DNA from: Gemmatimonadota bacterium
GTDB taxonomy: Bacteria; JAAXHH01
Assembly (NCBI GenBank): GCA_026702745.1
Contig: JAPPBT010000016.1
Coordinates: 1-52,180 of the forward strand
Length of the DNA: 52,180 nt
Direction of reading: 5' to 3'
The translations under genes were made by a program, and so were the position numbers. Shown one piece after another: positions 28,721 through 32,526 of the stretch. Within the stretch, counting starts at the first letter, position 1. Each line of letters begins with the position of its first letter. The notes under the pieces were generated by a model. That model was not told the origin of the DNA, ran no database searches, and worked only from the letters and a program-made list of their open reading frames with translations.

Positions 28721-29920
28721 CTAGGAAGTAACGCTCGAGGCCGGAATGCGCCGGAGCCATAACAGGCACGCTATGCCCGCCATGGCCAATACGCCGTTGA
28801 AACTGAATACCAGAATCCACGCAGACTGCACGCCGGAGAGGTCGAGAATCGATCCCGCGACCACCGGTGCGCCGGTTCCCACGACGAACCCAATGAAGGA
28901 CTGCACGGCCTGCGCGGAACCGACCAGGTTCCTCGGGGCGAGTTCCGTGACGGCCGTCGAGTAGATGGCGGAATCGGCCGCCGTGAAGAACCCGTAAAAG
29001 AAACCCAGCGCAATAAGCCAGGCAATAGGAAGTCCCACCAGCCACCCGGCGAGAAAAGAACAGAGACCGCTTACCGCGAAGATCAAAGTGGCCGTCCTGT
29101 TTCGCCCGAACCGATCCGACATCCATCCGCCCAACAGCACGCTGAAAATGCCCGTCATGAACATGAATCCGGCCAGGGTGGCGGCCCGCGATGCTGAGGC
29201 TTCCGAATCAAATCCCGTCATCATGAGTGCGGCGACGAGAAGCAGCGGCAGCCACAGGCGGGCCACGAAGAGCTCGGCGGTGTGCAGCGCATAGGCCATG
29301 ATCACCAGCATCAGCCGGCGGTCACGAAGCGGCGCGAGGGACAGCCAGCCGACCTTCCCGCGGCCATCTTCGATTTTCGTCGAACCTGCACTCCGTCCTG
29401 AAACCAGAAATGCTGCGATAGCGATGCTTCCCAGACCGGGCAACGTGGTCGTTAGAAAAGCTGGCTCCCATCCGTCCAACCAGTCCAGCAAGATGCCCAT
29501 GAAAACATACGAAACAGTCGTACCGGCGTAACCTGAGCTCACGAAGACGCCGACGGCCGTGGCCCGTCTACGGCCGGCAAACCGGTGCGACGCCAGGCGG
29601 ATACCTGTGATGTAGACACAGACATGGCCGACTCCGTAGGCGAATCGCAACAGGCACGCGGTCCACAGCCCCTCGGCCAGAATAGGAAACAGGAATCCGC
29701 TGCACGCCGTCAATACAGCACCAAAAAACAGAATCCGAAATGGATTGAACCGATCGGTGAAAGGTACAAGGAGCAGAGACGAAACGGCATAGCCGGCCAG
29801 GTACGAGGAAAAGATCACGCCCGACTGTGTGTTGTTCAGTCCCCACGCCTCGCGAATGAAAGGAAGGGAAGCAACGTAGCTGGACGAGGACAGCAGGATG
29901 AGAAATAGTGTGGAGCTCAA
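28721..29920 (-). CDS. Major facilitator superfamily transporter
   Basis: The 399-residue protein has about 11-12 hydrophobic helices and MFS features: SSYLAGYAVSSLLLVPFTDRFNPFR after TM2, and the repeated loop LLGGWMSDRFGRNRT at the start of the second half. It probably moves a small solute using the proton gradient. The only start is TTG 29920, which seems to cut into helix 1. The reading frame continues open upstream (AWLAGLSS...) for about 30 codons, but without ATG, GTG or TTG. No substrate can be read. Confidence 0.82.
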   Translation of the reverse strand: MSSTLFLILLSSSSYVASLPFIREAWGLNNTQSGVIFSSYLAGYAVSSLLLVPFTDRFNPFRILFFGAVLTACSGFLFPILAEGLWTACLLRFAYGVGHVCVYITGIRLASHRFAGRRRATAVGVFVSSGYAGTTVSYVFMGILLDWLDGWEPAFLTTTLPGLGSIAIAAFLVSGRSAGSTKIEDGRGKVGWLSLAPLRDRRLMLVIMAYALHTAELFVARLWLPLLLVAALMMTGFDSEASASRAATLAGFMFMTGIFSVLLGGWMSDRFGRNRTATLIFAVSGLCSFLAGWLVGLPIAWLIALGFFYGFFTAADSAIYSTAVTELAPRNLVGSAQAVQSFIGFVVGTGAPVVAGSILDLSGVQSAWILVFSFNGVLAMAGIACLLWLRRIPASSVTS

Positions 29921-30110
29921 TCCCGCGAGCCAGGCTACATCCGGTCCTGCGGTTGTGTTGGGCCGGGTGTGTCGAGTAAGGAATGGAAGATTAGGTGAAA
30001 TTGGTCCGAATCACTTAATGAGTAGCTATTCGTAAAGGTTCAGATTGAGGTACGCCCGCCTCAGTACTCTCTGCAATTTCCATTGGCTTGGATTATGGCA
30101 TTAACAGTTT

Positions 30111-30734
30111 CTAGGTGATAGCTAACTGTTCAGAAATAACACCAGCTAAACCGGGATACTTCACCTCACACCGACCTGTTACCTCTTTCACCAACTTTCT
30201 CAGAGGTTCGAGCCTTATTGTTTTCTGCAATTCCAACAACCCGTTGATGCTGCATGTTCTGATGACGTAGAACGACCACTGATCTAGAATGAGGGGATCT
30301 GGATTTAGATCAGCTGGATCACCAAGAAGGCAGAAAACATATGCGTCACTGCGACGTTCAGGTGTTTCAACACTTTCAGATCTATTTGAAACGGGATCCC
30401 AGAACCACTTTCTAGGTGCAATATCAAATCTAATCTCGGACGGTTTATCTTGAGGCCAACTCTGATAGTAAGCTGCACTCTTAACTTCTATTTTTTTCTT
30501 GTCTTCGGTCTCCAGATCATACCATCCCCACTCAAGGCGAGGAGAATGGTTCACCCCCAAGACTTTGGCAACAAGAAACTCCGCTATCACGCCCCGCTGA
30601 GCATTACTCAGCAGATCGGAGCCTGACCATTTCCAGTAATCACACAACGAAAATCCGGCCGATTCATCTCTTACTTTGAAGGTTTCTCTACATGACCTTA
30701 ATCCAGGTGAATGACCAAAGTTCGCTGTTTTCAT
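30111..30734 (-). CDS. PD-(D/E)XK nuclease-like protein, second gene of pair
   Basis: The 207-residue protein shows a plausible PD-(D/E)XK site. Glu52 lies in RGVIAEFLVAKVLG, Asp73 in GWYDLE, Glu83-x-Lys85 in IEVKSA, and a following Gln91. This order (helix Glu, Asp, ExK, Gln) resembles Holliday-resolvase and restriction-endonuclease folds. Trp residues cluster around the site. It begins four bases after the other nuclease-like gene and has no membrane or signal sequence. Base composition is visibly lower in GC than the flanks, suggesting transfer. I do not know a named family. A role in defence is inference. Confidence 0.65.
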   Translation of the reverse strand: MKTANFGHSPGLRSCRETFKVRDESAGFSLCDYWKWSGSDLLSNAQRGVIAEFLVAKVLGVNHSPRLEWGWYDLETEDKKKIEVKSAAYYQSWPQDKPSEIRFDIAPRKWFWDPVSNRSESVETPERRSDAYVFCLLGDPADLNPDPLILDQWSFYVIRTCSINGLLELQKTIRLEPLRKLVKEVTGRCEVKYPGLAGVISEQLAIT

Positions 30735-30738
30735 GAGC

Positions 30739-31848
30739 TTAACTTCTATTCTTCATAGTTTGGGTGTGCGCGTTTATCAGTTCGGCAACCCTCTTGATTC
30801 GACCCACCACTGCTTCTAACACCGACTCATAATCGACCCCAACAGGAAGTGGAATCGGAACAACCACCTCATCAACTTCGTTGTAACATTCCTTTGGATC
30901 CGAATGTTCAAGCGACACAAGTGCCTTTCGAGTCTGATCCAGTCTGATCGACGAATCCGACTTCCATTGTTCGAAGATTAGCCAAATGGGAGTATCGGGA
31001 TAGGAACCCTTAGCCCATCGAACAGAGTCAACGCCAAGCCAGACTCCAGCACCGGCAATTCGAAGGTACCTACCATATCCCCGATACCTCGGTGTGATTC
31101 TTAGCCCTGCTAAATCAGCATGTTGACACTCTACCGAACGGTTTGTCGCATCGTTAATCAGTTGCCGTAAACCACGTAAACGTCGTGGAAACTCCGGTCC
31201 GAGTTCTTCCATCCTGAGCGGCGGGAATCCACTCTCGTCGATCCGGTTGACAAATCCCTGGAGTTGCCCGATCTCATCGATCATGTCTAAGTCGTTGGCA
31301 TTCTCCAAGTGATTCAGCAAACTCTGCCAACTAATCAACATGAGGTATTTCGTACCGTAATCATCCCTGCTTACATTGGCACTCTTGAATTCGGTTGAAT
31401 TCATAAAGATACTGATCGAACCATAGGTGCTTGCCAGACGCCTCAATTCGGTCCAGAGGGATTCGATCCTGGAAATTGGCACGACGAACAGGAGCGCTTT
31501 TTCCGACGGCAGCCGTTTTAGGTATGCGATCGGCTGATTGCCGGTCAGTCCAGCCCAGAACTTCTCTTCGATGATCAGGCACTCGTTGCTGTTTCCATCA
31601 AATCCGACCAAGTCTGGTCGCGTCCCTTCCTCGCCGCCAACCTGTGTCCGGACACTGACTATTTCTCCCGTATTCGTACCGCCGCCCTTCATAAGGTATT
31701 CCAAGACCCTCCGCGCCGACGCGGACTTCAGAATGTACCCTAGTGCTTCAACAGCGACATCCTCGTGACGCGATGACAGCATCCAGGCAAGATGGGCTAG
31801 CAGTGAATCATCGTTTACCATTTTCGCCACTATCCGGTCCCCTTCCAT
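30739..31848 (-). CDS. PD-(D/E)XK superfamily nuclease (PDDEXK_4-like)
   Basis: The 369-residue protein holds a well-formed nuclease site: Pro78-Asp79 in RPDLVGFD, Glu94-Glu-Lys96 in LIIEEKF, and Gln105-P-I-A-Tyr109. The last matches the QxxxY motif of RecB-like PD-(D/E)XK nucleases. The N-terminal helical part (HLAWMLSSRHEDVAVEALGYIL) and the C-terminal part (residues 190 onward) look like specificity or partner-binding regions. ATG 31848 is chosen over TTG 31872 because the candidate promoter leaves only nine bases before the latter; no Shine-Dalgarno is seen for either. It is transcriptionally first of a two-gene, low-GC unit. Confidence 0.72.
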   Translation of the reverse strand: MEGDRIVAKMVNDDSLLAHLAWMLSSRHEDVAVEALGYILKSASARRVLEYLMKGGGTNTGEIVSVRTQVGGEEGTRPDLVGFDGNSNECLIIEEKFWAGLTGNQPIAYLKRLPSEKALLFVVPISRIESLWTELRRLASTYGSISIFMNSTEFKSANVSRDDYGTKYLMLISWQSLLNHLENANDLDMIDEIGQLQGFVNRIDESGFPPLRMEELGPEFPRRLRGLRQLINDATNRSVECQHADLAGLRITPRYRGYGRYLRIAGAGVWLGVDSVRWAKGSYPDTPIWLIFEQWKSDSSIRLDQTRKALVSLEHSDPKECYNEVDEVVVPIPLPVGVDYESVLEAVVGRIKRVAELINAHTQTMKNRS

Positions 31849-31887
31849 GGTCGTAGATATGGTTTCACCCAATACAACATTTAGCCA

Positions 31888-31916
31888 ATTTAAAACGTTC
31901 TCTCAACACTTTTCAA
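31888..31916 (-). promoter_or_regulatory. Candidate promoter of the nuclease pair
   Basis: On the minus strand, TTGAAA (31916-31911) is followed after 17 bases by TTAAAT (31893-31888), five and four matches to the -35 and -10. The predicted start near 31881 leaves about 33 bases before ATG 31848. Confidence 0.4.
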
Positions 31917-31959
31917 CGATTACATTGCATGCATAAGCTGGACCGAAAAGAGGCGGACT

Positions 31960-32526
31960 ATGGCTGAACGCAAGAATCCGGACGAGACCTACCTGGCCCT
32001 GCTGCGCGGTATCAATGTCGGCGGCAAGAACATCATCAAGATGGCGGATCTTCGGAGCTGTTTCGAGGCCGAAGGCTTCCTCGATGTCGCTACCTATATA
32101 CAGAGCGGGAACGTGATCTTCCGTTCGCCTTCCATCGGGCTCAGGACCTTGACGAAGAAAATCGAGGAGACACTTTCTGCGGCGTTCGACTACGAAGCGA
32201 GCGTCGTGATGCGCTCAAGAAGGCAGATGCGGGCAGTGGTTTCCGATGCACCGGCGGGTTTTGGAGAACGGCCGGAGACATATCGCTATGATGTTATCTT
32301 TGTGAAGGCGCCGCTCACGGCAAATGCCGCCATGGAGAACGTCCCGACCAGGCCCGGCGTGGATGAAGCCTGGGTGGGCAGCGGTGTGCTCTACTTCTCC
32401 AGGCGTATCGACCAGGCTTCGCGGAGCTATCTAAGCCGTCTCGCGTCAATGCCCGTGTACCAGCGCGTTACCGTCCGCAACTGGAACACGACGACCCGGT
32501 TGCTTGAGCTTATGGAAAAGGACTGA
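31960..32526 (+). CDS. DUF1697 family protein
   Basis: The 188-residue protein matches DUF1697 throughout: YLALLRGINVGGKNIIKMADLRSCFEAEG at the start, YIQSGNVIF in the middle, and the C-terminal VYQRVTVRNWNTTTRLLELM. The function of the family is unknown to me. GAGG lies six bases before the ATG. It is divergent from the nuclease pair across about 110 bases and is probably a resident chromosomal gene bordering the lower-GC island. Confidence 0.9.
   Translation: MAERKNPDETYLALLRGINVGGKNIIKMADLRSCFEAEGFLDVATYIQSGNVIFRSPSIGLRTLTKKIEETLSAAFDYEASVVMRSRRQMRAVVSDAPAGFGERPETYRYDVIFVKAPLTANAAMENVPTRPGVDEAWVGSGVLYFSRRIDQASRSYLSRLASMPVYQRVTVRNWNTTTRLLELMEKD

Follow-up and report, generated by a model that had tools for sequence, protein, structure and literature searches.

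Genes A and B, which lie side by side in a Gemmatimonadota bacterium, are probably two independent, solitary accessory nucleases that have been stacked in a genomic hotspot, with B probably restricting foreign DNA alone; we give this reading a probability of about 0.6. The two genes are not a fixed two-part system, and each family persists separately. B is a member of a widespread family that still lacks a name, and it behaves as a single mobile gene, which is encountered on plasmids and in an integron and also next to the integrase of a prophage.

A variable slot with two nuclease genes

The window is the whole stretch of DNA that was analysed, i.e. 52,180 nt from contig JAPPBT010000016.1 of assembly GCA_026702745.1. 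As the preliminary description stated, it contains two intact, adjacent ORFs on the minus strand, separated by 4 bases. Gene A (30739..31872, TTG start at 31872) encodes a putative PD-(D/E)XK-type nuclease of 377 aa, and gene B (30111..30734, ATG start) a predicted solitary PD-(D/E)XK nuclease of 207 aa with a PvuII/BisI-like fold. They occupy an AT-rich slot (29921..31959), bounded on the left by a conserved MFS transporter gene (28721..29920, minus strand) and on the right by a DUF1697 gene (31960..32526, plus strand) that is conserved in 12/12 genomes of the genus; both family names are from the first reading of the sequence.

The preliminary description was also right to place the genes in an AT-richer island. 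The GC content over A and B is 48.6%, compared with 62.4% for the window, and a lower value is seen in only 32 of 2521 segments of the same length (20-base steps), the lowest of which begins at 29680, overlapping the pair. Third-position GC is 0.55 in A and 0.42 in B, against 0.71-0.81 in four flanking genes. Comparison with the orthologues in a congeneric genome gave dN/dS values of 0.20 for A and 0.19 for B; since both are under purifying selection, they appear to be kept, working genes. A separate promoter had been proposed as well, but for the promoter-like sequence TTGAAA-18-TAAATT (31916-31887, minus strand) 2 matches were found where 2.1 are expected by chance, and the proposal is not supported.

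Flanked by the MFS and DUF1697 genes, the slot is a hotspot for accessory cargo, the contents of which vary among the 12 genus genomes. Two genomes have A and B, one has A alone, and one has A together with an exonuclease/endonuclease/phosphatase-like (EEP-type) gene. The remaining slots hold EEP-type genes with or without a small toxin-antitoxin-like pair, other genes, or, in genome G005, 340 near-empty bases. In two of the slots (L038, L042) small RelE/HigB-type toxin-like genes are located beside the EEP-type gene, with an HTH antitoxin in G002. The combination of A and an EEP-type gene was considered as a true pair and rejected, as it occurs only in G004 and, distantly, in G262, which is too few.

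A second hotspot in the genus, next to an alcohol-dehydrogenase-like gene, carries differing B alleles in G002, G003 and G011 (loci L047, L048 and L050). Two further nuclease-like genes were noted directly before B: in G011 one for a 154-aa protein that contains a D...Q-x-K motif (L050:6785-7249) overlaps the start of B from the upstream side, and in G002 one for an HsdR-N-like protein (L046:6496-7632) lies just upstream.

Gene B and its mobile family

The active-site evidence that B is a PD-(D/E)XK nuclease is strong, and catalysis is predicted from it. In an alignment of 96 sequences from about 17 phyla, the active-site stretch (30462..30581, minus strand) has five fixed residues: E52 (30579-30581), D73 (30516-30518), E83 (30486-30488), K85 (30480-30482) and Q91 (30462-30464), apart from one row with an X at E52. 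These are exactly the residues, and the numbers, given in the preliminary description. Further positions that are invariant in B and 95 relatives are N44, R47, G48, R66, W69, W93, W153 and F155.

The predicted structure of B (pLDDT 92, pTM 0.87) has a restriction-endonuclease-like core, and the top 25 fold matches in the PDB are all PD-(D/E)XK nucleases, although none has an E-value below 0.001. They include PvuII, NhoI, Eco15I, SfiI, EcoRV and the SPARDA nuclease (E 0.014 and up). Foldseek scores are weak (E above 0.01, TM 0.27-0.47), and such modest values fit a separate family rather than a known one. Searches of PDB sequences with A and B, both as single proteins and as profiles, gave nothing meaningful.

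B has no match above threshold in Pfam, NCBIfam, PHROGs or PADLOC. The sole match among the PADLOC 2.0.0 defence models is the methyl-directed model mREase_II (E 0.03), which is also weakly matched by 20 of 74 B relatives (best 3e-4). The relatives from public genomes considered here are the best 80 of 144 stretches, among which is a contig of the congeneric genome G004. The distribution of B is patchy (10/384 genomes). Bacillota, Actinomycetota and Pseudomonadota plasmids carry relatives, as do Faecalibacterium phages; in phage FP_Brigit, B sits between a repressor-type gene and a large serine recombinase. In the B tree, the sequences of the genus require two label changes, and some short branches unite bacteria of different families; within the genus, B is placed at several sites.

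Mobility is also seen in Vaginella massiliensis (NZ_LT593747.1; L090, L091, L092), where three B units that are 99-100% identical are located within 31 kb. Each unit is 0.85-0.89 kb long and has B as its sole gene, with an imperfect palindrome at the end that has ...AAC and GTTA ends; versions of this attC-like palindrome recur across the locus. A tyrosine recombinase gene lies about 3 kb from the closest B copy and is divergent from the array, and its product scored under the cut-off of the integron integrase model TIGR02249. With attC-like repeats round single-gene units and an integrase heading the array, the locus is, by its layout, a Bacteroidota integron in which B is a triplicated cassette.

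A crude attC scan of all B loci was clearest for the loci of Vaginella, Gilvimarinus and one Actinomycetota MAG, and found nothing after the B orthologue in G010 (L015). Because a second attC scoring of the B loci showed no excess over shuffles, cassette status is claimed for Vaginella only. An Rfam search of the attC-scanned loci returned tRNAs only. As leads only, attC-like hairpins were seen right after B in Gilvimarinus (L107:8559-8620, z -2.9), on a Pseudoalteromonas plasmid (L004:6547-6608, z -2.1) and in the Actinomycetota MAG (L121:8553-8645, fold z -8.2). The integron integrase of Gilvimarinus lies on a different contig from B.

Gene A and the question of a pair

That A carries a PD-(D/E)XK active site is a reasonable conclusion from its motif and predicted structure; its fold is less certain than that of B. 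The motif named in the preliminary description is real and invariant in 12 sequences, but its numbering began at an ATG 8 codons late. Counted from the TTG start, PD79, E94-E-K96, Q105 and Y109 become D87, E102-E-K104, Q113 and Y117, with D87 at 31612-31614, E102 at 31567-31569, K104 at 31561-31563 and Q113 at 31534-31536 in an aligned active-site stretch of 31534..31614 (minus strand). The predicted core (residues 36-131) consists of a helix, three strands, a helix and a strand, and an extra C-terminal part (about 230-377) is conserved among relatives. In the fold comparison A gave weak matches, to DrdV and YaeQ (E 0.017-0.03), amid unrelated folds, with a pTM of 0.52 and scores below those of B.

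Close relatives of A are confined to its own genus and distant ones are sparse (8/384 and 12/290 genomes). Nothing above threshold was found for A in Pfam, NCBIfam or PHROGs, and PADLOC 2.0.0 gave zero matches. No A was found by tblastn in plasmids and phages or in scans of viral contigs, and a scan of genome contigs using A alone returned nothing. In G603 a 112-aa piece of A (L172:7295-7633) appears to be a decaying copy. In G262 (L149:1512-7287) A is preceded by genes for an AAA-ATPase and a protease-like protein and followed by an EEP-type gene, which distantly resembles the EEP-type gene found beside A in the slot of G004.

Adjacency of A and B was found in two genomes only, the present one (G000) and G010 of the same genus, in which the gap is 11 bases and order and strand are as in the window. 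Two more genus genomes have A in the same slot with no B adjacent to it: in G004 A and B lie on different contigs, and G001 contains A but lacks B. Among about 99 B loci, A is also present solely in the congeneric G010, the other 98 or so being without it. Conversely, there is no B near the A loci outside the genus, nor anywhere in 14 genomes with a match to A, some of which are weak. Strictly, it does not hold that the two genes never co-occur elsewhere, since G010 carries the pair, but their recurrence is confined to one genus.

The preliminary description favoured a two-nuclease restriction or anti-phage unit. In such a unit A and B would be co-transcribed and act jointly, and one enzyme might, for example, cut what the other nicks. 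The small gaps, the shared order and strand, the purifying selection on both genes and the presence of B in 3/4 of the A-bearing genomes of the genus would all agree with such a unit. The separation by contig in G004, the presence of A without B in G001, and the many B loci and non-genus A loci that lack the partner argue against it, however, and we regard a joint system as distinctly unlikely. It is possible that B was lost ancestrally from beside A elsewhere.

Proposed function and comparison with known systems

The neighbours of B include McrBC-, HNH- and AAA-type genes according to Pfam, and Mrr- and DUF262-like genes by reading. Near B 266 PADLOC families were matched (124 proteins), against 110 farther off in the same loci (105 proteins); the control is a rough one, and the excess is a rough sign only because the models overlap. 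No fixed partner gene of B was found, as its neighbours do not cluster. In accordance with the earlier remark that a methylase or helicase partner is missing, a motif heuristic detected a methylase-like ORF within 1.5 kb in 0/99 B loci; by the same result, B was rejected as a type II restriction-modification system.

We propose that A and B came to adjoin in the variable slot and probably share one transcript, but need not act together. B would be a metal-dependent endonuclease, probably a PvuII-like dimer, that cleaves double-stranded DNA and might cut incoming phage or plasmid DNA. Because no methylase accompanies B, the host would be spared if B required a mark or structure missing from host DNA. 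The chemistry of A may be as in B, with the C-terminal part selecting the target. As B moves without a partner, with plasmids, prophages and an integron as its carriers, it is a fair candidate for single-gene anti-phage defence, and its mobility makes such a role plausible.

There are two other explanations. B (and A) might serve DNA repair or the life of mobile elements, such as the maintenance of a cassette, prophage or plasmid, rather than defence. Repair nucleases are among PD-(D/E)XK proteins, and B is found on plasmids, in an integron and beside the integrase of a phage; yet its patchy distribution and shifting neighbours are unlike those of a repair gene, and its copies move without fixed element genes, so that this role seems unlikely. 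Alternatively, B might be an orphan type II restriction enzyme whose former partner methylase is elsewhere in the genome. The fold is nearest that of PvuII, the active-site spacing of which resembles the D-x9-E-x-K of B, but the lack of methylase-like ORFs within 1.5 kb by the motif heuristic, together with the copies that form B-only cassettes in one genome, renders this origin very unlikely. We prefer to regard A and B as independent nucleases, of which B probably acts alone.

A broader suggestion is more tentative, and we hold it at clearly less than even odds: that B founds an unnamed family of methylase-free single-gene nucleases, present in about 17 phyla of bacteria and archaea, that restrict foreign DNA by a mark or structure and travel as integron cassettes and as plasmid or prophage cargo. 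If B does restrict alone, the single-gene defences would gain a compact gene of many phyla that has no above-threshold match in any of the libraries scanned (Pfam, NCBIfam, PHROGs, PADLOC). The rule by which it tells self from non-self, whether a mark or a structure, would then amount to a new specificity for an enzyme. The pair itself offers a caution, in that adjacent nuclease genes in a hotspot may be no system. Family B, more than the A-B pair, merits experiment.

Among known families, the closest to A is PDDEXK_4 (PF14281), which gives sub-threshold or weak matches over the active site in 5/12 members of the A family (A and 4 of 11 relatives; best 1e-4). A itself scores 11.6 bits, under the curated cut-off of 22.3, and the model leaves its C-terminal part uncovered.

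For B, the top PDB fold is PvuII (3pvi, E 0.014), and both active sites are of the D...E-x-K type. However, identity to B is about 11% and the TM-score is 0.32-0.45, and whereas PvuII comes with a partner methylase, B has none nearby. NhoI and Eco15I, which are among the best PDB folds of B, belong to the BisI family of 5mC/5hmC-dependent restriction enzymes (PMC11347163, PMC4926085). B shares with this family its small size, a single-domain-type architecture and the lack of a methylase nearby, and the helix Glu, the Asp and the Lys are all in place. By analogy, this distant likeness and the missing methylase lead us to infer that B might be modification-dependent. The active sites of NhoI and Eco15I are Q-x-K (QVK/QIK) (PMC11347163), in contrast to E-x-K in 96/96 sequences of the B family; membership in BisI was rejected and B is not filed there because E-x-K is found throughout.

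According to a recent review, integrons are a reservoir of genes against phages (PMC12409362), which provides a lead and not evidence of what B does. B in the window, which follows A by 4 bases, is probably unlike the cassettes of such integrons; in Vaginella it resembles them, as the lone gene of a repeated unit with an attC-like end near a divergent recombinase.
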